IMG/VR virus record: IMGVR_UViG_3300030110_001829
Span: 1 to 40,948 of that record
Strand: one strand, 5' to 3'
Origin: a virus
Length of the DNA: 40,948 nucleotides
Of the stretch, positions 2,133 to 31,187 are shown piece after piece; position 1 is the stretch's first letter, and each line of letters starts with the position of its first letter. The notes beneath the pieces are model-generated. The model had not been told where the DNA came from and did not search any database. It worked only from the letters and a program-made list of their open reading frames with translations. Position numbers and translations under genes: made by a program.

Positions 2133-3177
2133 ACTCTTACCAACAAAATTAAAAGTATGGATATACACATCTTTACATAAAGACATAGCAGACAAAGGAG
2201 AATATGAAGATACCGAGTTAGCTCATGTCAACCCTTATGAAGTAAAGATACTAAAAGAGTTAGGGGGTGCTGGTAAGGTAAATCCTGAAACAGGTTTAAG
2301 AGGTTATTTTGGTGGTGGAGGTTCTCCAGCACCAGCTCCTGCTCCTAGTGGTTCTGGTACACAAACTACTATTTCAAGAGAAGCTCCTGGAATCGAATCA
2401 AGAAAACTAGCCTTATTTGATGAGGCTATCGATTTAGCTGGTGAACCTATATCAATCCCTAGAATGCAAGTTGCGGGTGTGTCTCCTTTACAACAACAAG
2501 CTTTAGACCAAGCTGCCGTTACAGGTGTTGGTGGAGCTGCAGTAGATGCGGGAATAGCTTCTTTTCTTAAAGCTTCACAAACAGCAGAAGCTCCTATAAA
2601 TGTAGATGCGTTTATGAATCCTTATGAGTCTTATGTAGTACAAGAAATAAATAGACAAGCCGATATTGGTAGAAATAGATTAGCTCAACAAGCTATTGAT
2701 TCAGGTGCTTTTGGGGGAGGTAGAGAGGGTGTAGCATTAGGTGAATTAGAAGCAGGAAGAGCAAGAGCCGTGGGACAAGTTCGAGCAGCTAATTATGATA
2801 AAGCTTTAGAATCTGCAACAGCTCAAAGACTATTTCAAACAGAAGCGGCAATGAATGTAGGTCAGCAACTAGCTACCACTGGAGGTATACAACAAGAAAT
2901 GGCTCAATCTGATATACAACAACTAGGTGGAGCGGGACAATTACAACGAAGTATTGCTCAAGAAGGTTTACAAGCAGAACGTGCAACAGAGTTAGCTAGA
3001 GCCTATGAGCCTTTTCAACGTATTGAGTTTGCAAAAGGTATCATGACTGCTTTACCAACTACAGCATCTCAAGTAACTCAAGCCTCTGCCCCTAGAGTAA
3101 ATCCAATTACTCAAGCAGTCGGTACAGGCATCACGGCGGCTCAAGGAGTTAACATGTTAAAAGGATTTGCTACATAA
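2116..3177 (+). CDS. Ala/Gln-rich internal virion (injection) protein
   Basis: A 353-aa protein with a hydrophobic, basic N-terminus (MKWILKLLPTKLKVW), a Gly/Pro/Ala linker near residues 65-80, and a long helical Ala/Gln/Glu-rich region. The segment from MNPYESYVVQEINRQ to DSGAFGGGREG (about 168-200) is a widespread motif of marine podovirus structural or injection proteins. Its composition resembles T7 gp14 and the P22 ejection proteins. It overlaps the acetyltransferase-fold gene by 17 bases and ends in TAATG with the next gene. The virion role is inferred from composition and position. Confidence 0.6.
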   Translation: MKWILKLLPTKLKVWIYTSLHKDIADKGEYEDTELAHVNPYEVKILKELGGAGKVNPETGLRGYFGGGGSPAPAPAPSGSGTQTTISREAPGIESRKLALFDEAIDLAGEPISIPRMQVAGVSPLQQQALDQAAVTGVGGAAVDAGIASFLKASQTAEAPINVDAFMNPYESYVVQEINRQADIGRNRLAQQAIDSGAFGGGREGVALGELEAGRARAVGQVRAANYDKALESATAQRLFQTEAAMNVGQQLATTGGIQQEMAQSDIQQLGGAGQLQRSIAQEGLQAERATELARAYEPFQRIEFAKGIMTALPTTASQVTQASAPRVNPITQAVGTGITAAQGVNMLKGFAT

Positions 3178-6098
3178 TGGCTAAAAGAGGTAGACCACCA
3201 AAAAAAAATAGATTAGATAAAACTAAAGCTTTAGGTAGTGCAGGTTTTAAAGGTTTATTAGGTTTAGGCGGAATTCTAGGTTTATCAGGTTCAAGTAATT
3301 TAGAGGAAGGCATACGCACAGGAGATGCTTCTGAAATGTATACGGGTGCAACAGAAACAGCTGGTGGTATTTACGCTTTAAATCAATTATTAAAATCACT
3401 AGGTAAAAAAACAAAAGCAGGAAAAGCACTTAGAGGAGTAGGAGGACTTTTAGAAAATATACCGGGAGGTCGATCTTTTAAAAAATTAATAAAAAATAAA
3501 TTACCTTTTCAAGATACTCTTACTAAACCAGTTTTTCTACCACATATTGCTGCAACTAATCTTGCAGTAGAACAGGCAATTGAAGAAACTATTGATAAAG
3601 ATAAACCACCAACTGAAACCTATTTAGATATGCTAAGAATATCAGGAAGAGACCAAAATATTTTTAAGACTGATCCACGATTTTTAGAACCAGCAAAAGT
3701 TATTACAAAAGAAGTCTCTAAAGAAGAGAAAGATAAAAACTACCAATTGGCTAATTTAAGAAGTTATGATGATGCTCCAAAGACAGAAAAGGCTTTTGAC
3801 TACATTACTACAAATGAAATAGAAGAACCTGTAGTAAATGAAACAGAACAACCTACAACAGAAGTTGTTGAAGAAAATATACCTGTTTTAACCGACCAAA
3901 CAGATACTGATGAAGAAGCTACTAAAGAAAACATTAAGGATAACGCTCAAGTAGAACAAATTAATAAAGAAAAAACTACTGATCCCTCTGATGAAATATT
4001 AAATGAATTAGAATCACAAGTTACAGCTGTTGACAGTACAATTAAAGTGGGAAGTGGAAAGAACGAAGACGACCCCAGAATAGTATTAGAAGATGGGGAT
4101 GAAGAAACAAAAGAAATAGAGCCTGTAAATAGATTAAATATACAAGAAAACCTTGATCAAATGAAAGATCCTGAAAATGCAATAGCTAATATTATGGCAA
4201 GTCCAATGGATATTGAAAATTATACAGAGGCGGCAAATGAATATAAAAAAAATGCTATGACAAGTATAGCTTTGCTTAAAAAATTTGAAAAAGATAACCC
4301 CAGAGTAAAACTTACTTGGGATGAATATAGAGAAAAGTTTGGTGGTGAGATACAAAATGATACTAAAGATTTTATTCTATTAAAGTTTGGTTTAGGTTTA
4401 ATGAGTGCTAGAACGGATTTACCTGGCTTTAGTGGTTTTATGGATATTCTTGGTAGAGTTGGAGGACAAGCTGTAGACGAGTTACAACAAGTGTATGAAG
4501 CAGAAAGACTAAACAGACAAAGGATGCAACAAAGTTTTGCACAATATGAAATGCAAATACAAGAATCAGGAAGACAAGATAAGTTAAATATGTTGAACGC
4601 AAGTTTGGGCGTATACAATAAGCTAAGTAACGATTTAATTGGTTTAAAAATAAAATCAATAGACAACAAATATAGTCTTGATATGAAAAGAATCGAAGAA
4701 GAAGCTAATATTAAAATAAAAAAAATGGAAGTTTATGAAAGCATTGCAAAACAACGATTAGAGATAGATAAAGATCGAGCAGATAAAATGGGTATTAAAG
4801 ATAATACCTTAAATAATTTTACAAATATATATAATGGTGAAGGGTTGTTAGGAGGAGTTGGGTATATGACAGCTTTAACCAAAGATAATGAGCTTTTAGT
4901 TAAATCTAATTTTATTGAAACTCAAAAGGGTGAAATAATACCTAACCCCGGAGTCACTCTTGATTACATTCCAGTGAAGGATCACAATAGAATGGTTTTT
5001 ACTAAAATAGATCAGCAAAATAAAAAAATAAAAGTCCTTAAAGACACTGTTAAAACCCTAGAACCAAAGTTAAAAACAATAAATATTGGTGAGAAAAAAA
5101 ATGTAGTTGTCACCCAAACTTTGTTTGACCAATATAAAGATAGACCTGGTTTTAATGTTACACAAGAAATGGTAAATCAGAATATTAATACCAACACACA
5201 GATTGAACAAGCAAAAGCTGCAATAGTTACAGAAACAGAAAAAAGAATTTCATATCAAGATTCTGTGTTTGATACAAATAATATGTCATCACCAGCCAAA
5301 GAAGTAGAAATTCCAAAACATATACCTAGTGCTTTAACTAGTGCTAACTTAGCTTTACTACAAGCTGAAGATGTGCAAAATTTAATTAACTTTGCATTTG
5401 ATAAAGGCTCTGAGGTAGTAGGTTTTAGAGGACGACTAATGGAAATGTTTTTAGGTTTTAAAGATATTGCTAACATAGGTGATCAAGATCAAGCTTCCAT
5501 TGAAGAAATTCAAAATGAAGCTCTTGCAAACGGTTTGACTCATTTAACAAATGTAAAATATGTAAATGATAAAAAAGAAGAAAGCACTGTTATGCAAGAA
5601 ATACAAAAAAGATTAGATGCTAAAGAAGACATACAGTTAACAACCTTACAAGACAAATTACTTGAAAAAGCTACAGGATATTTAGATAGTGGTCAAAAAT
5701 TAAGTGAGGGTGCAAAAAGAGCAATACAAGCAAGACTTCGTGTATTAGAAACAGTTTTAGTTTTTCAACTTGCTAATGCTCTTAAAGAAGAAGATCGTTT
5801 AACAGAAGCAAATATTAGGTCAGCTAAAGAATTATTACCTCTATTTCAATTTTCTGGACTAGGAACTGTAAGAAGTAAGGTTGATGCTACCATCATGACT
5901 ATTAAAGAAAAAGCTACTTCTAACATGAAAGTGGCTTTTGATTCAGGTATGAATGAAAATCGAATACAATCACTTGCTCCTTATATTTATAAAAAACTTA
6001 AACAAAAGAATTTAAGAGATAGAGCTAATTCTGAGTTAGGTCTACCTCGCGCTAAAAATGCAGCTCAGATGATAAATGAAATTAGAAAAGGTATGTGA
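3177..6098 (+). CDS. Large coiled-coil virion protein with AT-hook-like N-terminus
   Basis: A 973-aa protein starting on the TAATG junction with the gene before. The first residues, MAKRGRPPKKNR, form an AT-hook-like basic motif. A Gly-rich helical part follows (20-110), then an acidic Pro/Thr/Glu-rich stretch (about 190-330), a region with DLPGFSGFMDILGRVGGQA near 415, and long Gln/Lys/Glu helices likely to form coiled coils (450-560). Size, composition and place between other internal virion genes suggest an injected core protein like T7 gp15, but no sequence family is recognised. No catalytic motif is seen. Confidence 0.55.
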   Translation: MAKRGRPPKKNRLDKTKALGSAGFKGLLGLGGILGLSGSSNLEEGIRTGDASEMYTGATETAGGIYALNQLLKSLGKKTKAGKALRGVGGLLENIPGGRSFKKLIKNKLPFQDTLTKPVFLPHIAATNLAVEQAIEETIDKDKPPTETYLDMLRISGRDQNIFKTDPRFLEPAKVITKEVSKEEKDKNYQLANLRSYDDAPKTEKAFDYITTNEIEEPVVNETEQPTTEVVEENIPVLTDQTDTDEEATKENIKDNAQVEQINKEKTTDPSDEILNELESQVTAVDSTIKVGSGKNEDDPRIVLEDGDEETKEIEPVNRLNIQENLDQMKDPENAIANIMASPMDIENYTEAANEYKKNAMTSIALLKKFEKDNPRVKLTWDEYREKFGGEIQNDTKDFILLKFGLGLMSARTDLPGFSGFMDILGRVGGQAVDELQQVYEAERLNRQRMQQSFAQYEMQIQESGRQDKLNMLNASLGVYNKLSNDLIGLKIKSIDNKYSLDMKRIEEEANIKIKKMEVYESIAKQRLEIDKDRADKMGIKDNTLNNFTNIYNGEGLLGGVGYMTALTKDNELLVKSNFIETQKGEIIPNPGVTLDYIPVKDHNRMVFTKIDQQNKKIKVLKDTVKTLEPKLKTINIGEKKNVVVTQTLFDQYKDRPGFNVTQEMVNQNINTNTQIEQAKAAIVTETEKRISYQDSVFDTNNMSSPAKEVEIPKHIPSALTSANLALLQAEDVQNLINFAFDKGSEVVGFRGRLMEMFLGFKDIANIGDQDQASIEEIQNEALANGLTHLTNVKYVNDKKEESTVMQEIQKRLDAKEDIQLTTLQDKLLEKATGYLDSGQKLSEGAKRAIQARLRVLETVLVFQLANALKEEDRLTEANIRSAKELLPLFQFSGLGTVRSKVDATIMTIKEKATSNMKVAFDSGMNENRIQSLAPYIYKKLKQKNLRDRANSELGLPRAKNAAQMINEIRKGM

Positions 6099-6104
6099 TA
6101 AACT

Positions 6105-9100
6105 ATGTCTAAGTATGATCCTGAATTTTTAAAAGAGTTGAGAACTTCAGTTCAAGATAGAAAATTTAATCCTGATAAATTATCTCCTGATGCTCTAAGA
6201 GAAGTTGATTCCTTATTTAGAGCTGGAGCTGTGGCCGACTTTACTTCTATCAATGAATATATTGCAGAAAGAGATTTAGCTAAAAGAGAAAGAGCTTTAG
6301 AATATGCTGAACAAGCAGAACCAGGTAGAACAGCAATAAGAGAAGCTACAGGTATAGATGTTACAAGGCCTGGGTTAGAGTTTGGTGGTGAAGTAATAGG
6401 TGCTACTTCAGCATATTTATACAATAGAAAAAATTTAAGTGAGGCTTACAAAAGAACAAAGTTAAATCCTGTTAAAGTTGATTTTATTAATAGTTCTAAA
6501 AATTTAGGTCAAGTATTAGAGAGCACTAAATTAAAAGGTAAAAAAGGTTTAATAAAATCGGCTTTGAGTATTTTACCTAGAACAGCTAATTTTTTAAAAA
6601 GAACTTCAAATATATTTGTAGGAAGAGATTACAGTTCTACTGCAAAAAGAGTGGGTGTCTACTCAGCTTTAGCTGGAGCATCAGGAGCTGCAGCAGGTTC
6701 AGTTACTTATGATGTTATGAATATGCAAAAAGATTTTGCAACCAATGCAACTCTTGATATTGGTAAAATTTCAGAGAATGAATTATTAAAACTTCCCACT
6801 TCACAACGTATGGAGATTGCTGCAATAAATGCTTTTAAAAACTCATTGTTATGGACAGGAGGAACTAGTGCTGCAATAACAGGAGCTTTACGACTTGGTT
6901 CTTTTGGTGCAAAAGTATTAACAGGCACTACAGGTAAAGAAGCAAAAACATTAGCCTTGTCTGCAAGAAAATTAATGGGAAATGAAGGTATACCCTTAAT
7001 TTTATTAGCTAACAATAATAATACTTTCGGTGCAATTATAAGAGGTTTTTTTACAGCTGGTGGTTTGATTCCCGGAGTTGGTGGTGTTGGTACTGCTGCA
7101 AAGCAAAAATTAGTAGAACAAGGTATGGCTAAATTTACTTCAGAGTTATCTCAAACTTATGGAATGTTAAGTCACAATGAAATATTTGGACACACCCTCG
7201 GCCCTGTGCTCAAGAATAATTATATAAAAAACATGAAATTAATTGATCAAAAATTTGCACAAACTAATGAAGCTGCAAGATTAGTTGATCCAGAAAACAA
7301 CTTTGCAATAGTTCCTACAGATAATTTACGTAAAGCTATGAACAGTTTTAGTGATACTATGAATTCTAATACTTTAAAAACTATAAAAGCAGCTTTAGAT
7401 GACCCAGATGGCGTAAAATTTATTGATCCTGCTATAGTAAAAGCTTTACCTAACAAAAAACTTTTACTGAGTTTAACTGATTTTTTAAAGGGTGGTAATA
7501 GATTACCTAAACATATGACTTTAAATGAATATCAGGGCTTCATTACTATGTTAAATAATGTCATTAAACAAAGTGGTAAAAAGGATGACCTACTTTTATA
7601 CACAAAAGGTATGCGTATGGCTATGGAGTCTGATTTAAACACTGTGGCTAAGAAAAAATTTAGAAAAGATTTCGTAAAAACAGCTGCAGACAATCCACAA
7701 ATTAAACAAAATTTAGATGCCATAGATAATGGAGATGTTGTTGAAATGGCTGGTACTAAATTTATGAAGAAAAACGACACTATGCTAGGTCCTCCATTAC
7801 CAAACACTTTTGTTGGTGAAGCCTCTGCTGTAAAAAAAGCTTACTTAAATCATATAATGGGTGGTATTGATAATTTTGGTAAAAGCCTTACCACTTCTAA
7901 TGATTTTATGAGTCGTATGCTTCAGCCGTATGAAAGAACTGTTGCTAGAAAATTAGCAGGTAAAACAGATAAAAATTTATTTAGCACTTACAACATGTTA
8001 GATATAGTAGGAGAAGGTATAACTCCTGATCAAGTATTTAAACATCTATCAAGAGATGTATTACAATCTGGTAGCAAAGGAGTAATACAAGATTTTAAAA
8101 TATTGTTAGGCACTAATAATATAAAAGGTAAACTAGGTCGTGAATATTTTCAAAGATTAAAAACTAACCATATCTTTGATGCTTTTTTTCAATCTTTTGA
8201 AAACTCTGGAATACTTGCTGGACAATTTGTTAAAAACCCAGCCAAGATTTTTGATGAGGCTAATAAAAAAAGATTATTTTCTAAAAAAAGATTTAAAGAT
8301 GGTATTGAAGATGCTACTGAAAACAATGTTATTAATCCATATGATTTAAATGCTGAAGCCATTTTAAAAGATAAAAAGTTTTTAGAAATAGATAAAAGAA
8401 AAGTTATAGCTGATGTGGAAGCATTAGGTGATTTTAGTGCGGATAAATTTATTAAAAATTTGAAATTAGATTCAAAAGAAGGTATAGAAAGTTTTGTAGA
8501 AATGATAGCAGATGGCACTAGTAAAGCAGAATACAAAATGGCTCAAAATTATGTAGAAAACAAAGTTATACCTTTTATAGCTTCTATGAAAAATATTTCA
8601 GATATGCGTATAGGTAGTGTATCTTCTATGATTGCAAGACAAACTCAATTAGGTGGTGCACGAGGGTTTTTATTTGCAGGACCTATGGTTGGAGCATTAG
8701 CTGGTTCTACTTTAGCAGCAACTGGATTATTAGAAGCTTTAACTATTCCTCTTATGTTAAGAGGTATTGGTTATTTATTAACAAGGCCTAAATTAGCTAC
8801 TAAATTATTAGATGCTTATTTACCTGAAGAGTTGATAGCTAAGAAATTTAAGACAGATGCTTTAGGAACTCCTACAACATTTAAAGCTACTGCCGCTGAA
8901 GGCTTACCTTCCAAACGTAGAGCATTAGGTGCCATTATAAATTTAATAAATGACGAAACACAAGATTCTTTACAAATAAATTTAGATAAATTATCTGATA
9001 AAGAAATACAAGAAAAACAAATAGAGATACGTGATGCTATTATGGGGGCACCAACTGTTTTACCTGATGATACTTTTTCTCCTGAGATACTAACTGAAGA

Positions 9101-9482
9101 AGAAAGACAAAGAATGTATCCAGAATTTGAAGCTTTTGCTAAAGCAAGTACTGAAGATAAGGCTGCCTACTTACAGTATGTGTCTGGCTTACAAAAAGGT
9201 AAACTTCGTGCTGAATTAGCAATGGAAGCAGAAGATATCACAGAAGATGAAATGCTTATGGCTATTCAAGGAAGACCCGCGCAAAGACAACCCGCGGCTC
9301 CCGAACCTGTGCAAGAACAACAAATGGCACAAAACCAACCTATACAATTACAATCAGGAGCAAATCCAATAAATACTCAAGGACTTAACTTAGATGCTTT
9401 TGGTTCTTTATTTCCAGACGATCCTATGGGTCAATTAATAGCAGATAGAAAAAAATCTATTGGAGGACCTAACTTTGGATGA
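6105..9482 (+). CDS. Giant virion protein, probable DNA-injection protein
   Basis: The longest gene here, 1125 aa. Hydrophobic Ala/Gly-rich segments occur near residues 185-205 (YSALAGASGAAAGSVTYDV), 300-330 and 860-890 (GFLFAGPMVGALAGSTLAATG), which could insert in membranes. The rest is Lys-rich and helical. The C-terminus is Gln/Pro-rich (PAQRQPAAPEPVQ) and probably disordered. Its size and position match the last internal core protein of podoviruses (T7 gp16 analogue). No lytic transglycosylase motif is visible. It begins 7 bases after the preceding stop and its own stop touches the next start. Confidence 0.55.
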   Translation: MSKYDPEFLKELRTSVQDRKFNPDKLSPDALREVDSLFRAGAVADFTSINEYIAERDLAKRERALEYAEQAEPGRTAIREATGIDVTRPGLEFGGEVIGATSAYLYNRKNLSEAYKRTKLNPVKVDFINSSKNLGQVLESTKLKGKKGLIKSALSILPRTANFLKRTSNIFVGRDYSSTAKRVGVYSALAGASGAAAGSVTYDVMNMQKDFATNATLDIGKISENELLKLPTSQRMEIAAINAFKNSLLWTGGTSAAITGALRLGSFGAKVLTGTTGKEAKTLALSARKLMGNEGIPLILLANNNNTFGAIIRGFFTAGGLIPGVGGVGTAAKQKLVEQGMAKFTSELSQTYGMLSHNEIFGHTLGPVLKNNYIKNMKLIDQKFAQTNEAARLVDPENNFAIVPTDNLRKAMNSFSDTMNSNTLKTIKAALDDPDGVKFIDPAIVKALPNKKLLLSLTDFLKGGNRLPKHMTLNEYQGFITMLNNVIKQSGKKDDLLLYTKGMRMAMESDLNTVAKKKFRKDFVKTAADNPQIKQNLDAIDNGDVVEMAGTKFMKKNDTMLGPPLPNTFVGEASAVKKAYLNHIMGGIDNFGKSLTTSNDFMSRMLQPYERTVARKLAGKTDKNLFSTYNMLDIVGEGITPDQVFKHLSRDVLQSGSKGVIQDFKILLGTNNIKGKLGREYFQRLKTNHIFDAFFQSFENSGILAGQFVKNPAKIFDEANKKRLFSKKRFKDGIEDATENNVINPYDLNAEAILKDKKFLEIDKRKVIADVEALGDFSADKFIKNLKLDSKEGIESFVEMIADGTSKAEYKMAQNYVENKVIPFIASMKNISDMRIGSVSSMIARQTQLGGARGFLFAGPMVGALAGSTLAATGLLEALTIPLMLRGIGYLLTRPKLATKLLDAYLPEELIAKKFKTDALGTPTTFKATAAEGLPSKRRALGAIINLINDETQDSLQINLDKLSDKEIQEKQIEIRDAIMGAPTVLPDDTFSPEILTEEERQRMYPEFEAFAKASTEDKAAYLQYVSGLQKGKLRAELAMEAEDITEDEMLMAIQGRPAQRQPAAPEPVQEQQMAQNQPIQLQSGANPINTQGLNLDAFGSLFPDDPMGQLIADRKKSIGGPNFG

Positions 9483-14334: not shown

Positions 14335-15153
14335 ATGACGAAAAATACTAAAACAAACGAAGTAACTTCTTTTCGCGCACATGCGGGAGAAGGAACAGAG
14401 AATATTTCAGCTAAAGATCAGAAGCTACCTATTCTTAAAATACTACACGCCTCATCTCCTGTGTTAGATGAGTCGGAAGCTAAGTATAACGAAAAAGCCA
14501 AACAAGGCGACATCTATAATGAAATTACGGGATCTTTATATAAGTCTAAAGATGGAGTTATTGTTGTGCCATGTGGGTATGTCAACACTTACAATGAGTG
14601 GGCTGATAGAGGAGACTCTCCAGGTAGACCTATTGCAGTGCATAGTGATCCTAATATAATGACAAAGACAACTCGAGATACAGAAAATAAAGATCGTCTT
14701 GATAATGGTCATTATGTAGAAGATACGGGTAATCATTTTGTTTATATTTTAAATAAAGATTATGAGCCTATAGAAACTGCTTTGATTACAATGAAGTCTA
14801 CACAAAGAAAAAAATCTAAGTTATGGAACTCTATGATTAATTCAAAGAGGATGAAAGATGCTCAAGGATTTTTCGTACCCGCAACTTGGATGACTGTGTA
14901 TAAACTTACAACAAACAAAGAGTCCAATGGTAATAACAGTTGGTGGGGTTGGAATGTAGAATTTGATAGATTCTTAGACAAGTCCGAAGATGGAGATACC
15001 AGACAGATGACTGAAGACTTTTGGAAGTTTACGAAAAGTTCTGACATCTTTGGTAAGATACAGTTTGATCCTAAAGACGAAAAGACTATAGACCAAATAC
15101 CAACAGCAAAGATTGAAACCTCAAAAGACGATATAAGTCAATTTAGGAGTTAA
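14335..15153 (+). CDS. Predicted ssDNA-binding or recombination-mediator protein
   Basis: A 272-aa protein starting 3 bases after the preceding stop. LPILKILHASSPVLDE near residue 30, the GDIYNEITGSLY segment and the VIVVPCGYVNTYNEW strand are hallmarks of a widespread phage family often found between recombination genes and treated as ssDNA-binding. The tail (KIETSKDDISQFRS) is short and mixed-charge. It lies directly ahead of the primase, where a single-strand binder would be useful. Function is inferred; no OB-fold can be shown by eye. Confidence 0.5.
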   Translation: MTKNTKTNEVTSFRAHAGEGTENISAKDQKLPILKILHASSPVLDESEAKYNEKAKQGDIYNEITGSLYKSKDGVIVVPCGYVNTYNEWADRGDSPGRPIAVHSDPNIMTKTTRDTENKDRLDNGHYVEDTGNHFVYILNKDYEPIETALITMKSTQRKKSKLWNSMINSKRMKDAQGFFVPATWMTVYKLTTNKESNGNNSWWGWNVEFDRFLDKSEDGDTRQMTEDFWKFTKSSDIFGKIQFDPKDEKTIDQIPTAKIETSKDDISQFRS

Positions 15154-21044: not shown

Positions 21045-21072
21045 TTGACATTTCTAGGATATATCTTATATT
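21045..21072 (+). promoter_or_regulatory. Rightward sigma70-like promoter
   Basis: A perfect TTGACA (21045-21050), 16-base spacer and TATATT (21067-21072) about 30 bases before the first gene of a small-gene operon. The spacer contains the operator-like palindrome described next. Confidence 0.65.
21053..21070. promoter_or_regulatory. Operator-like palindrome, copy A
   Basis: Matches TATAAGATATATCTTATA at 16 of 18 bases; the left arm is degenerate. It fills the spacer of the rightward promoter and runs into the -10 box, the classical place for repressor binding. Confidence 0.5.
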
Positions 21073-27103: not shown

Positions 27104-27158
27104 TCTCTAATGTCATTCCTTACAACTTTTTTTTTAAACAAAGTGTAAAATAGCCAAA

Positions 27159-27252
27159 AGTTTTAGGAAAATAGGAAAAATAGCAGAAAATATAGTATTA
27201 CAGAGAAAAAGTTTTAGGAAAGTTTTAGGAAAAATTCCTAAACTTTAGGAAT
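27159..27252. repeat. Iteron-like AT-rich repeat cluster, possible origin
   Basis: AGTTTTAGGAAA occurs at 27159-27170, 27210-27221 and 27221-27232, with shorter AGGAAAA copies between and an inverted copy (TTCCTAAACT, 27235-27244) followed by CTTTAGGAA. The 275-base stretch between the leftward operon and the rightward nuclease gene has no gene. Clustered direct and inverted repeats in AT-rich DNA fit a replication origin or a multi-site operator. Confidence 0.5.
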
Positions 27253-27331
27253 ATATATATACTTCTTACCGACCGGGAGCTGCAAAGTTATTTTATTTTT
27301 TTTTTCTAGGAAAGTGCATTATACTATTTGA

Positions 27332-27763
27332 ATGAAGATAACAGAGTCAAAAGTATGGTCTTACATTAACCAGATTCAAAAGCAAAAAAAAGGTTGGCAT
27401 TTTATTAGGATAGAATCTAATACAATCAATGGAATCCCTGATATAAATGGTGTGGTAAACGGCAAAGAATTTTGGATAGAATTGAAGTGCAATCGTGGTA
27501 ACAATATAGGATTAAGTAAGTATCAACTGTTGTGGCATAGTAAAAGAATACAATCTGGAGGGAAAACTTTTATTCTGCATCTGACCGAGAAGCAAGAGCA
27601 TATTGAAATTCTCGAGGTGCGAGATTCCCGTTCCCGTTCCCGTTTCCCGTTTGCCGTTAGAATTAGTCTAGTGTCGTACGCTAGCAGCCAGCCTGGCTGC
27701 ACACCAGGGACCCGGGTTCGGGTTGGTTTGGAGAAAGCCGTGAACCTGATGTCCCGTATGTAA
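27332..27763 (+). CDS. VRR-NUC-type nuclease with a repeat-encoded C-terminus
   Basis: A 143-aa protein whose first 92 residues are a small PD-(D/E)XK nuclease of the VRR-NUC type: GIPDING (D37), then the strand EFWIELKCN (E50-x-K52), and SKYQLLWHSKRIQSGGKTFIL. Such enzymes cut structured DNA or Holliday-like junctions. From about residue 93 the code runs into the CCCGTT tract and yields RDSRSRSRFPF and Pro/Gly-rich sequence, unlike the family. The real ancestral C-terminus may have been cut off by insertion of the GC-rich element. No clear ribosome site precedes the start. Confidence 0.7.
   Translation: MKITESKVWSYINQIQKQKKGWHFIRIESNTINGIPDINGVVNGKEFWIELKCNRGNNIGLSKYQLLWHSKRIQSGGKTFILHLTEKQEHIEILEVRDSRSRSRFPFAVRISLVSYASSQPGCTPGTRVRVGLEKAVNLMSRM
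27626..27727. repeat. GC-rich structured element, unit 1
   Basis: Starts with CCCGTT repeats, then a CTAGTGTC block, a perfect 7-bp hairpin GCAGCCA/TGGCTGC (27684-27700) and a second hairpin ACCCG-GGTT-CGGGT (27710-27723) flanked by ACCA/TGGT. Much richer in G+C than the genes around it. It lies inside the 3' part of the nuclease frame. Confidence 0.7.
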
Positions 27764-27764
27764 G

Positions 27765-27847
27765 TCCCGTTTCCCGTTCCCGTTTCCCGTGTTCGTAGTT
27801 GAGGCAACAAGATCCAGCGTAAGCTGCTGGGCAGCGACCCGGGTCCC
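27765..27847. repeat. GC-rich structured element, unit 2
   Basis: CCCGTTTCCCGTT tract, a TTCGTAGTT block, a GCTGC-TGG-GCAGC hairpin (27823-27835) and the perfect palindrome GACCCGGGTC (27836-27845). Same component order as the other units. Confidence 0.7.
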
Positions 27848-27876
27848 AAGAACAGTAATTATTATAAAAAAAAAAT

Positions 27877-27904
27877 TTGCAGTTATAAAAAAAAATGTTA
27901 TAAT
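27877..27904 (+). promoter_or_regulatory. Promoter with perfect -10 box
   Basis: TTGCAG, 16-base spacer, TATAAT (27899-27904). The start region (AGTTTCTTTTAAACAATTA) closely matches that of the promoter at 28405, so both share promoter and leader. Confidence 0.65.
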
Positions 27905-27938
27905 AGTTTCTTTTAAACAATTACTAAAAGGTAAAACA

Positions 27939-28289
27939 ATGACACAAAAAACTTGCAAAGATTTAGTCCAAGAAAATTACAACGACAGACTTGAACAGAT
28001 AAGAACGGAAGAAGAAGCCCCTTTTTTGGGTTTCGATTATGTAGAGCCGAACACCTTTGAAGGTCAGGAGGTGGGTTATTATCGTTATCAGATGAGTTGG
28101 GGCGGACCTTCTGACGAATTTAGATTACACGACAATAAAAGTAAAATAGAATATTGGTATTTAGATTGGTATGACGGGGCATCTATTGAAGTAGATGATT
28201 TTGAGGTTGTTGACTTGATGAACTTTCATATTGAAAGCCACAAAGAAAAATTAATGAATCCATTAAATAAAATTTTTAAATATAATTAA
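27939..28289 (+). CDS. Small acidic protein of unknown function
   Basis: A 116-aa protein (MTQKTCKDLVQENYNDRLEQIR...) from the ATG behind AAAAGG, downstream of its own promoter; a longer frame would start inside the GC-rich element. The core YYRYQMSWGGPSDEFRLH and YWYLDWYDGASIEVDDFEVV is beta-rich and aromatic, like small phage regulatory proteins. It is flanked on both sides by GC-rich elements. No family is recognised. Confidence 0.65.
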   Translation: MTQKTCKDLVQENYNDRLEQIRTEEEAPFLGFDYVEPNTFEGQEVGYYRYQMSWGGPSDEFRLHDNKSKIEYWYLDWYDGASIEVDDFEVVDLMNFHIESHKEKLMNPLNKIFKYN

Positions 28290-28290
28290 G

Positions 28291-28397
28291 CCCCGTTCTC
28301 GTTTCCCGTTCCCGTTTTCGGGAGCGGGATTATTTTGTTTTGGTCTTTAGTTACCGGGCTGGCAGCAGCGCGCGCAACCGGGTACCGAGTCAGGTAA
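28291..28397. repeat. GC-rich structured element, unit 3
   Basis: A CCCGTT tract folds into an 11-bp hairpin with TTTT loop (28304-28329), followed by a T-rich stretch, so it can end transcription of the preceding gene. Then a TTTAGTT block and a GC-rich stretch containing GGCAGCAGC and CCGGGTACC, bounded by TTACC (28351) and GGTAA (28393). Confidence 0.7.
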
Positions 28398-28404
28398 AAA
28401 GTAG

Positions 28405-28432
28405 TTGCAAAATATCCCATATATAATACAAT
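28405..28432 (+). promoter_or_regulatory. Promoter similar to the one at 27877
   Basis: TTGCAA, 16-base spacer, TACAAT, then AGTTCTTTTAAACCAATAAAGGAG, which aligns with the start region of the previous cassette promoter. Confidence 0.6.
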
Positions 28433-28464
28433 AGTTCTTTTAAACCAATAAAGGAGAATGAAAG

Positions 28465-28641
28465 ATGAATAAAGATGACTTTATAAAAGGGCTCATGAAG
28501 TACGGCAGAGACAAAGGGTTTATACAAGATAAGCCTGAAGAGGGCAAAACATATACTCTTGTGGGTGCAGGTAATTGTATTGCAGGTGGCAATACTTGGG
28601 CTGAATCCGAAGTAAGCAAAAAAAAGAAGGAAGATAAATGA
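28465..28641 (+). CDS. 58-aa small protein
   Basis: A short protein (MNKDDFIKGLMKYGRDKGFIQDK to VSKKKKEDK) with an AAGGAG site eight bases ahead and its own promoter. It has a Gly-rich centre (YTLVGAGNCIAGGNTWAE) with one cysteine and a lysine-rich tail. It is followed directly by the next GC-rich element. No family recognised. Confidence 0.6.
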   Translation: MNKDDFIKGLMKYGRDKGFIQDKPEEGKTYTLVGAGNCIAGGNTWAESEVSKKKKEDK

Positions 28642-28652
28642 GGGCAGAAGCT

Positions 28653-28768
28653 AACGGGAAATGCAATCGCATTTCCCGTTTCTCGTTACAACTCCCGTTG
28701 GGGCGTTCGGCGTTTCTAGTTCAGCCCGGGCTGCAAGTTGCTGCAGCCAGCGTACCGGGTCGGAGGAG
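28653..28768. repeat. GC-rich structured element, unit 4
   Basis: Opens with a perfect 12-bp hairpin AACGGGAAATGC/GCATTTCCCGTT (28653-28680). A 46-base block (28675-28720) is repeated in unit 5 with two differences. It ends with the 12-bp palindrome CAGCCCGGGCTG (28722-28733), a GGCTGCA/TGCAGCC hairpin (28729-28748) and CCGGGTCGGAGGAG, which also supplies the next gene's ribosome site. Confidence 0.75.
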
Positions 28769-28771
28769 CTG

Positions 28772-28885
28772 ATGATTCAAATGGCAGTTTTCGTGGGCAT
28801 TTTGTGTGTCCTTTGGTTCTTCACTAGATGGCTAGTGCTGTCTGTGGTCATTATAGTCTTGACATATTTGGTGTTCTTTTGTTAG
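28772..28885 (+). CDS. 37-aa membrane protein
   Basis: A small protein of two membrane-helix-like segments (MIQMAVFVGILCVLWFF and LVLSVVIIVLTYLVFFC). GGAGGAG lies a few bases ahead of the ATG, inside the end of the GC-rich element. A longer frame would extend into that element and is rejected. Such small membrane proteins occur as holin-like or superinfection-exclusion proteins, but nothing more specific is visible. Confidence 0.6.
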   Translation: MIQMAVFVGILCVLWFFTRWLVLSVVIIVLTYLVFFC

Positions 28886-28889
28886 GAAG

Positions 28890-28973
28890 CCCCGTTTCCC
28901 GTTACAACTCCCGTTGGGGCGTTTGGCGTTTCTAGTGTCTAGTCCCAGGTTTTTACCCTGGGCTGGGTGCAGC
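28890..28973. repeat. GC-rich structured element, unit 5
   Basis: CCCGTTTCCCGTT and the 46-base block shared with unit 4 (28891-28936), then CTAGTGTCTAG, a hairpin CCCAGG/CCTGGG (28944-28962) and GGGTGCAGC. It ends in an A-tract just before the AT-rich palindromes. Confidence 0.75.
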
Positions 28974-28999
28974 AAAAAATAAATATTTATGTGCGGACA

Positions 29000-29017
29000 T
29001 ATAAGATGTGTCTTATA
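29000..29017. promoter_or_regulatory. Operator-like palindrome, copy C
   Basis: TATAAGATGTGTCTTATA, 16 of 18 bases as in the consensus. It is followed at once by an inverted repeat ATAGGA-TAT-TCCTAT (29015-29029). Confidence 0.55.
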
Positions 29018-29041
29018 GGATATTCCTATAGCAGATATAGG

Positions 29042-29070
29042 TTGCATCTATAAGATATGTCTTATATACT
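29042..29070 (+). promoter_or_regulatory. Promoter enclosing palindrome copy D
   Basis: TTGCAT (29042-29047), 17-base spacer and TATACT (29065-29070). The spacer is occupied by TATAAGATATGTCTTATA (29049-29066), 17 of 18 to the consensus. Promoter and operator geometry match the one at 21045. Confidence 0.6.
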
Positions 29071-29104: not shown

Positions 29105-29374
29105 ATGTCAGATACAAAACTGATACTACAAACATTACAAAGCTTTGAGCGAAAGCTTGAAGAGATTAAATCTAATGCGGTTACTAATCCGCAACCATTA
29201 ACTGAAAGCTCTATTAATTGGTTGAATGTATATAAGGCAATGGAGTCTTGTGTCGAGGAGGTTATGGTCGCTTATCCTAATAGTGAGGTTACAAGACTAT
29301 TAAGGAATAAACTAGCAGAAAGACTTCAGCCTTTACTTGCTAGAATGAATGGCGGAGATATAGATGAGTCTTAA
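29105..29374 (+). CDS. Small helical protein of unknown function
   Basis: An 89-aa protein (MSDTKLILQTLQSFERKLEEIKS...) from the ATG behind TTGGAGG; a start 48 bases upstream would lie in the promoter leader. It is helical, with leucine-rich repeats of charge (LLRNKLAERLQPLLARMNGGDIDES). It overlaps the following gene by 11 bases. Control by palindromes C and D is likely. No family recognised. Confidence 0.65.
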   Translation: MSDTKLILQTLQSFERKLEEIKSNAVTNPQPLTESSINWLNVYKAMESCVEEVMVAYPNSEVTRLLRNKLAERLQPLLARMNGGDIDES

Positions 29375-29540: not shown

Positions 29541-29602
29541 GATAGCCTCCAAGCTATCCGTTGCAACGGAACAGAGTCTCTTCGGAGGCTCTGTTTTTTT
29601 TT
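29541..29602 (+). terminator. Intrinsic terminator with upstream alternative stem
   Basis: The terminator is ACAGAGTCTC-TTCG-GAGGCTCTGT (29571-29594) with a UUCG tetraloop and nine T. Before it are GATAGC/GCTATC (29541-29558) and CCGTTGCAACGG. AGCCTCC (29544-29550) can also pair with GGAGGCT (29584-29590) and would undo the terminator. Further on, 29603-29714 has a TGTCTT/AAGACA hairpin (29655-29682) and no gene. Confidence 0.85.
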
Positions 29603-29714
29603 GGTTTTTGCCGTTGGTGATTTCGCCGTTTTTTTCGTCACGGGGGGTCGGTAGTGTCTTTTGACTAAAGTCAGGCAAGACAAACACATGTAAATATGCT
29701 ATAAAAATTCTAGG

Positions 29715-31187
29715 ATGCAAAAAGAAAACCTACCAGTAGAGAAACTGAGGCTCGAGGTTGAGAGGCTCATGTTAAAACATATCAAGCTATGTCAAGATAA
29801 TTTTTTATATTTCGTACAGGATATATGGCCTGATTTTATATGTAGAAAAGCTAAAGAACGAAATAAGTGGGGTCATCACCAAATCATAGCAGATGAGTTT
29901 ACACAGATTGCTAGTGAAAGAAAAGGAAGGCTCATTATAAACATGCCTCCTAGACATACTAAATCAGAATTTGCATCTGTTTATTTTCCTGCGTGGATCA
30001 TAGGGAAGTTTCCAAAATTAAAAATTATGCAAGTATCACACAATACAGAATTAGCAGTACGATTCGGAAGTAAGGTTCGTAATATTATTGATTCACCAGA
30101 GTACAAACAAATTTTTGGAGACGTAAAACTTCGTGAGGACTCTAAGGCAAAAGGAAGATGGGAAACAAATCAAGGTGGAGAATATTACGCCGCGGGTGTC
30201 GGTGCGAGTATCACGGGTCGTGGTGCGGACTTATTGATTATTGATGATCCACACACGGAACAAGATTCTATGTCGGACATGGCGATGGAACGTGCATACG
30301 AATGGTACACATCAGGTCCTCGACAAAGATTACAACCAGGAGGCTCAATATTATTAGTAATGACAAGATGGGCAGAAGATGATTTGACTGGCAGATTGTT
30401 GAAGGCTCAAACGGAACCTAAAGCAGATACATGGAAACAAATTTCTTTTCCTGCGATTCTCGAATCAGGGAACCCAGTATGGCCAGAGTATTGGGAACTA
30501 GATGATTTAGAAAAAGTAAAAGCGTCTATTCCTATTCGTAACTGGTCAGCTCAGTATATGCAAAACCCAACATCCGAGGAAGGTGCAATTTTAAAACGTG
30601 AGTGGTGGCAACCTTGGGACAAAGAAACTATTCCAAATTTAGTGCATGTGATACAAAGTTATGACACAGCGTTTAGTAAAAAAGAAACAGCAGACTATTC
30701 TGCAATTACAACGTGGGGAGTTTTTTTTCCTGATGAAACAACACCTCAAATTATTTTGTTAGATGCGATTCGTGGTAAATATGATTTTCCCGAGTTAAAA
30801 GTTGTGGCGTTAGATACGTATAAATACTGGGAACCCGAATCAGTAATCATTGAACAAAAAGCTAGTGGTGAACCATTGACACAAGAGTTTCGCAGAATGG
30901 GTATACCTGTTATTCCGTTTGTTCCTACAAGAGGTAATGATAAACATTCAAGAGTAAATGCTGTAGCACCTTTGTTTGAAAGTGGTGCTGTGTGGTTTCC
31001 GTATGGTGAAAAGTTTGCAGATGATGTGATTGACGAATGTGCTGCGTTTCCACACGGAGCAAATGACGATTATGTAGACTCTACCAGTCAAGCACTTTTA
31101 AGGTACAGACAAGGTAACTTTGTTGAGTTATACTCAGACTATGTTGATAATTTTGATAGACCTGTAAAAAATTATAGTTATTATTAG
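29715..31187 (+). CDS. Terminase large subunit
   Basis: A 490-aa packaging motor and nuclease. The ATPase has a variant Walker A, INMPPRHTKSE (77-84), Walker B LLIIDDPHT (D177-D178), and the coupling motif LLVMTRW near 215. The C-terminal RNase H-like nuclease has QSYDTAF (D317), a middle acid in LLDAIRGKYDF, and GANDDYVDS near 465. This matches the Terminase_6 group. No clear ribosome site precedes the first ATG; an ATG at residue 20 with GAGAGG ahead is possible. It opens the head-assembly block. Confidence 0.93.
   Translation: MQKENLPVEKLRLEVERLMLKHIKLCQDNFLYFVQDIWPDFICRKAKERNKWGHHQIIADEFTQIASERKGRLIINMPPRHTKSEFASVYFPAWIIGKFPKLKIMQVSHNTELAVRFGSKVRNIIDSPEYKQIFGDVKLREDSKAKGRWETNQGGEYYAAGVGASITGRGADLLIIDDPHTEQDSMSDMAMERAYEWYTSGPRQRLQPGGSILLVMTRWAEDDLTGRLLKAQTEPKADTWKQISFPAILESGNPVWPEYWELDDLEKVKASIPIRNWSAQYMQNPTSEEGAILKREWWQPWDKETIPNLVHVIQSYDTAFSKKETADYSAITTWGVFFPDETTPQIILLDAIRGKYDFPELKVVALDTYKYWEPESVIIEQKASGEPLTQEFRRMGIPVIPFVPTRGNDKHSRVNAVAPLFESGAVWFPYGEKFADDVIDECAAFPHGANDDYVDSTSQALLRYRQGNFVELYSDYVDNFDRPVKNYSYY

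Follow-up and report, generated by a model that had tools for sequence, protein, structure and literature searches.

GC-rich repeat spacers between small accessory genes upstream of the terminase in HTVC023P-type pelagiphages: probable terminator-promoter modules at the boundaries of exchangeable gene cassettes

The window, by which we mean the whole stretch of DNA analyzed (40,948 nucleotides; IMG/VR record IMGVR_UViG_3300030110_001829), encodes a terminase large subunit (TerL; 29715-31187, plus strand; phrog_38, E 1.6e-118) that is 75% identical to the TerL of HTVC023P, a cultured, podovirus-type phage of the ocean bacterium Pelagibacter. Judged by this protein, the window is an HTVC023P-type pelagiphage; no close match at the DNA level was found among named phages. 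HTVC023P-type phages, which are described as widespread phages of Pelagibacter (PMC9599517), hold a large reservoir of functionally uncharacterized genes. TerL forms the right border of an array of small genes. Its left border is a plus-strand gene (27332-27763; family f1) with weak resemblance to PD-(D/E)XK nucleases of the Hjc/VRR-NUC type (phrog_2165, E 2.3e-14; phrog_93 “endonuclease”, E 9.8e-6; Hjc Pfam match below the cut-off, E 0.05-0.15), which gene adjacency places at the same border in nearly all relatives. The three small genes listed at 27939, 28465, and 28772 in an initial annotation of this DNA are real, as they have homologues or recur in relatives. The first (27939-28289, plus strand; f7, 116 aa) belongs to phrog_36747, of unknown function, and has a conserved core, WGGPSDEFR..DWFDGA, with homologues at 46-78% identity; its AF2/AlphaFold model is confident (pLDDT 82), and the best match of the model in the PDB was no better than E 1.9. 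The f7 protein also occurs in L217-L219 and in L215, an unrelated-looking phage contig. The second (28465-28641, plus strand; f20, 58 aa) has homologues at varying positions in L214, L012, L011, and L261, while the third (28772-28885, plus strand) encodes a small membrane protein of 37 aa with a homologue in L214 (f42), its slot being occupied in other relatives by similar short hydrophobic ORFs (f31, f37/f38). Behind the array lie, first, a gene of the f2 family (29105-29374, plus strand), which usually sits within the last block before TerL, and a strong intrinsic terminator (29568-29605, plus strand) upstream of TerL. Elsewhere, the structural part of the window holds two very long ORFs, at 3177-6098 (973 aa) and 6105-9482 (1125 aa); neither has a PHROG match, and the former also has no Pfam match.

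Five GC-rich elements of 87-109 nt each lie with these genes within 27626-28975, between the nuclease-like gene (27332) and TerL (29715). As first described, they share one order of components and are far richer in G+C (57-60%) than the adjoining genes (34-39%) or the whole window (33.8%). In all five, the order runs from a tract of CCCGTT hexamers through a TTCTAGTT-like block to a GC-rich block. The tract opens each element close behind a stop codon, except in the first, where it lies inside the end of the left-border ORF. Across 27601-29000, CCCGTT occurs 15 times (500 dinucleotide shuffles: mean 0.6, maximum 4), with nine tandem pairs (shuffle maximum 1) and a single AACGGG. The description of the elements as hairpin-forming held for E1 (27626-27724, 60% GC; fold z -3.54; tract overlapping the called ORF 27332-27763 at its 3' end), E3 (28290-28387; z -3.26), and E4 (28654-28762, 59% GC; z -3.80), but not for E2 (27752-27849, 58% GC; z +0.37, no excess structure) or E5 (28889-28975, 57% GC; z -1.12), all five being given on the plus strand. 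The E3 hairpin at 28304-28329, TCCCGTTCCCG-TTTT-CGGGAGCGGGA with a T-rich tail (11 pairs, 8 of them GC), has the sequence of a textbook intrinsic terminator. Positions 28675-28720 in E4 are 96% identical to 28891-28936 in E5, a recent intragenomic copy.

Two of the three genes had been credited with their own promoters, and sigma-70-like sites do precede 27939 (27876-27904, plus strand; TTTGCA-17-TATAAT; z 2.3 versus shuffles) and 28465 (28405-28432, plus strand; TTGCAA-16-TACAAT, identical in L214). Promoter-like sites in this stretch are as numerous as shuffles predict, and these two count only because the same genes in relatives have them too. Two copies of a TATAAGAYRTRTCTTATA palindrome (29000-29067) occupy the promoter region of gene 29105. 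With 0-2 mismatches, this palindrome is found at 21053, 27066, 29000, and 29049 (8 strand hits versus a shuffle mean of 0.84), and three of the four places adjoin promoters, among them the promoter of the minus-strand operon that runs divergently; a phage regulator probably uses these palindromes as operators. The stretch 27156-27315, ahead of the nuclease gene, contains repeated TTTTAGGAAA iterons, and HTVC023P carries similar CTAGGAAA repeats just upstream of its terminase small subunit (L089, ~2440-2545); both sets of repeats are possibly a packaging or replication site.

TerL searches provided 121 loci that include 1.2 kb or more of upstream sequence, of which 86 are non-identical; in 73 loci left after deduplication, we mapped the gene families and the spacers. 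Of the 86 loci, 29 contain CCCGTT-like tracts. The tracts always lie between the nuclease-like gene and TerL and almost all point one way (202 sense matches versus 9 antisense); in 12 records of 17-58 kb they form a single cluster with a single orientation per record. Near-complete relatives have no tracts outside the nuclease-TerL region, which argues against the suggestion that these are spreading repeat elements. The near-identical contig L088 has the same array as the window, while in L018-L024 the array is absent and the nuclease gene stands directly upstream of TerL. About a quarter of the tracts behind a family gene begin 15 nt or less from its stop codon, and tract doublets are mostly 80-120 nt apart. 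In phages that lack CCCGTT, the slot holds different tandem repeats (CATAAC, ATCAT/CCAATCAT, ATCTCTACC, ATACC, or CCAGCAATCAT), and HTVC023P and HTVC027P each have a repeat type of their own at the corresponding position. C exceeds G on the sense strand in 87 of 102 non-coding arrays of the slot and in 3 of 13 in other upstream non-coding DNA. The spacer feature is real and general in HTVC023P-type pelagiphages. In HTVC027P (L090, 4797-5160), the repeats are AAGCTTG, and the genes of the matching region are on the minus strand, so that the repeat has C>G in their sense. L217 (3620-4640) and L218 have, in the same slot, a TATAGTAA-like block and then a CGGCCGGCCG palindrome behind each gene. 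Among the matches listed, a tract scan of bacterial genomes gave apparent chance matches in unrelated taxa and is uninformative for SAR11.

Comparison of relatives, as the initial annotation had advised, revealed that relatives have acquired, lost, and rearranged whole gene-plus-spacer units, with such differences even between phages whose TerL proteins are 94.5% identical, in keeping with its view of the locus as gene-plus-element cassettes. Specifically, f7 precedes f20 in the window and in L214, whereas f20 precedes f7 in L012; a unit containing f30 stands before f4 in one and after it in the other of L261 and L042 (TerL 94.5% identical); and units f24, f23, and f8 also shift position among the 73 loci. 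Between L261 and L042, several homologous blocks, or stretches of synteny, end within about 10 nt of tracts. Gene adjacency is kept per pair across 53% of element junctions versus 77% of element-free junctions, a difference that is confounded because element-free junctions are mostly operon-internal. Breakpoints lie near tracts in 19.3% of cases versus 13.8% by chance (largest of 300 nulls, 19.6%), and near-tract breakpoints make up 39% of left-hand ends versus 8% of right-hand ends, an excess that could arise from alignment extension through the conserved tract. The breakpoint test is marginal, and recombination at the tracts is therefore plausible rather than demonstrated.

Integron arrays also consist of small genes that alternate with foldable elements and get reordered, and the initial annotation had drawn that comparison. 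The pelagiphage cassettes likewise alternate with elements and are gained, lost, and reordered. An integron-like or other site-specific recombination array, with a recombination site for each gene, is nevertheless the least probable of the readings that we weighed and is disfavored. Tyrosine recombinase (PF00589) was found in 0 of 15 related records, some of them perhaps incomplete (the control search was positive in 14 of 14 known genomes), which bears out the original remark that no integrase is visible, and serine recombinase/resolvase was found in none of the 15. The attC core pair RYYYAAC/GTTRRRY was found neither in the window stretch 27601-29000 nor in any of 135 elements of relatives. 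Finally, the cassettes are not mostly promoterless, since a strong sigma-70-like promoter of their own precedes 58% of the genes flanked by elements. Because integrase, serine recombinase, and attC cores were all missing from these searches and the genes have their own promoters, we do not count the locus among the integrons.

The relatives also reveal the regulatory anatomy of the spacers. Of 64 genes flanked by elements, 58% are preceded by a sigma-70-like promoter in the top 5% of shuffles, compared with 3% of 65 genes inside operons, and palindromes specific to the lineage are present in many cassette promoters (six-period clade, TTATCSGATAA; window, TATAAGAYRTRTCTTATA). The HTVC027P matching-region genes gp30, gp33, and gp34 have their own temporal expression classes (PMC12753301), which is consistent with separate transcription units. 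A terminator-like hairpin with a T-run is present on the sense strand in 26% of the 135 elements (5% when shuffled, 7% antisense), leaving 74% with no recognizable intrinsic terminator. In several cases the terminator stem is built from the tract itself, and its partner switches with the tract type: CCCGTT pairs with AACGGG and CTCGTT with AACGAG, the stems being CCCGTTCCCG:CGGGAACGGG in L009/L224 and CTCGTTCTCG:CGAGAACGAG in L010/L012. An own-type complement of at least 7 nt is found in 20-25% of type-6 and CTCGTT elements, compared with 0-2% in the control.

Might termination depend on Rho instead, with the tract serving as the rut site? Tandem repeats that are C-rich and G-poor on the sense strand occur in several lineages, and the C>G bias of the slot arrays agrees with this reading. 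However, when the C>G bubble is assessed over 78 nt, as in rut prediction, the C-over-G excess of tract genomes is no higher on the sense strand (0.091 versus 0.121 on the opposite strand), and the rut pattern is present in 36% of sense versus 48% of opposite strands, which leaves Rho-dependent termination unlikely. A family of structured small RNAs, another of the early suggestions, is disfavored and seems very improbable, for although three of the five elements in the window are folded more stably than shuffled sequence, the 135 elements have a mean fold z of -0.7, with most values near zero and a similar picture on the opposite strand; an Rfam search of the window gave no match, and RNAalifold on 18 elements aligned by sequence returned no consensus pair.

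The reading that we favor, at a probability of roughly 0.6, is that the stretch consists of terminator-promoter spacer modules bounding the cassettes of an accessory-gene hot spot in HTVC023P-type pelagiphages. Terminator-promoter modules had been listed among the original alternatives, and they are the best fit of that list. Under this model, the hot spot would be built from autonomous units, each with a host-type (sigma-70-like) promoter and one to three small genes and each closed at its 3' end by one or two GC-rich spacers, in which a C-rich tandem tract near the stop codon would be followed by a hairpin (in some copies), a GC-rich block, and the next promoter. The spacers would keep transcription from running on from one unit into the next or into the late operon, which extends from TerL, and a unit could therefore function wherever it lands. 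Similar spacers in every gap would plausibly supply short homology, by which ectopic recombination could insert, delete, and reorder units, and such exchange would need no site-specific recombinase. What the sequences themselves display is the layout, confinement, orientation, promoters, a minority of terminator-like hairpins, reordering, and the uniform tract type, while we infer that the spacers terminate transcription, insulate the units, and serve as sites of homologous recombination. The locus shows the place and the regulatory setting in which HTVC023P-type phages exchange part of their pool of unknown genes, and the spacer repeats offer a tag for locating cassettes in metagenomes; a term search of PMC9599517 found no mention of these repeats.

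Several known systems resemble this arrangement in part. PeSLs (promoter early stem-loop) of T4-like phages were reportedly described by Arbiol in 2010 and by Comeau in 2014. They are intergenic repeats of a terminator stem-loop and an early promoter among small accessory genes and have been proposed as cassette shufflers (PMC4503421). The pelagiphage spacers are also repeated intergenic modules, dense in a gene-shuffling region, in which a promoter is frequent and a terminator-like hairpin occurs in 26% of elements. They differ in belonging to podovirus-type pelagiphages (TerL 75% to HTVC023P) rather than to the T4-type myovirus group, and in having a high G+C content and tandem tracts peculiar to each lineage, which are uniform within a genome and switch between genomes. 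By analogy, the locus appears to work like PeSLs, though it lies in a different group of phages and most copies lack the hairpin. In lambdoid phages, morons and linker (boundary) sequences comprise additional genes that sit between conserved ones and have a promoter and a terminator to themselves. The pelagiphage units fit that description as well but stand serially in one dedicated slot, with the same type of element in every gap.

The terminator-promoter model does not explain why tracts are uniform within a genome. Tracts are of the CCCGTT, CCCGTTT, CTCGTT, or CCCGT type depending on the genome, and 95% of 139 tracts are of their own genome's main type versus 57% in shuffles (maximum 64%), with counts that are inflated by genome kinship. 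The same gene families stand beside differing types in different genomes (three each for f20, f24, and f4). Whole spacers, meanwhile, are more alike at the same junction between genomes than are different spacers within one genome, for which reason concerted evolution of whole elements was rejected; taken together, these two patterns imply that the spacers are inherited in place and that the tract motif is kept uniform genome-wide. An opposite-strand G-quadruplex was rejected as a shared function, since, by inference, CCCGTT permits it and CTCGTT (L011, L012) does not.

One possible though improbable account is that the tracts are DNA or nascent-RNA binding sites of a phage-coded factor at unit ends, with factor and tract co-evolving and switching together. 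This would accommodate the genome-level uniformity, the fixed orientation (202 versus 9), and the change of tract type beside f20, f24, and f4, and it has a parallel in the stoperators of Cluster A mycobacteriophages, which are intergenic, of one orientation, and genome-specific in motif (PMC6550527). The pelagiphage tracts share those properties, with one orientation relative to transcription, but are confined to a single region with no genome-wide spread, combine a tandem tract with a hairpin, and vary in repeat period (5 to 7 in the clade, up to 11 or more elsewhere); moreover, stoperators are sites for an immunity repressor, and the pelagiphage factor is hypothetical. A more speculative proposal, which we consider doubtful, is that a tandem repeat recognized by a phage-coded factor marks every cassette end and that newly arrived genes are given the recipient's repeat as their new mark; if this lineage-specific punctuation code were true, pelagiphages would own a recombinase-free cassette-array system. 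Equally doubtful is that the tracts are slippage-prone simple repeats of little function, in weakly constrained spacers, that are homogenized by gene conversion or ectopic recombination. The variety of C-rich repeats that different lineages have in the slot (CATAAC, ATCAT, ATCTCTACC, CTCGTT, CCCGTT) and the recent copy shared by E4 and E5 suit that account, but neutral repeats would not be expected to show the sense bias (202:9), the proximity to stop codons, or the C>G excess (87 of 102 arrays), and same-junction spacers are more alike between genomes than spacers are within one. Whatever its cause, a tract that is uniform within genomes and switches between them poses a clear concerted-evolution puzzle, testable in cultured HTVC023P and HTVC027P.

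Outside the array, the phrog_2402 protein (14335-15153) was considered as an annealing recombinase and rejected, as its model is an OB-fold that is gp32-like at best (Z 5.7); the model points to an SSB and does not establish the protein as an annealing one. The protein has weak similarity to gp32-type ssDNA-binding proteins and is present in all 11 records searched.
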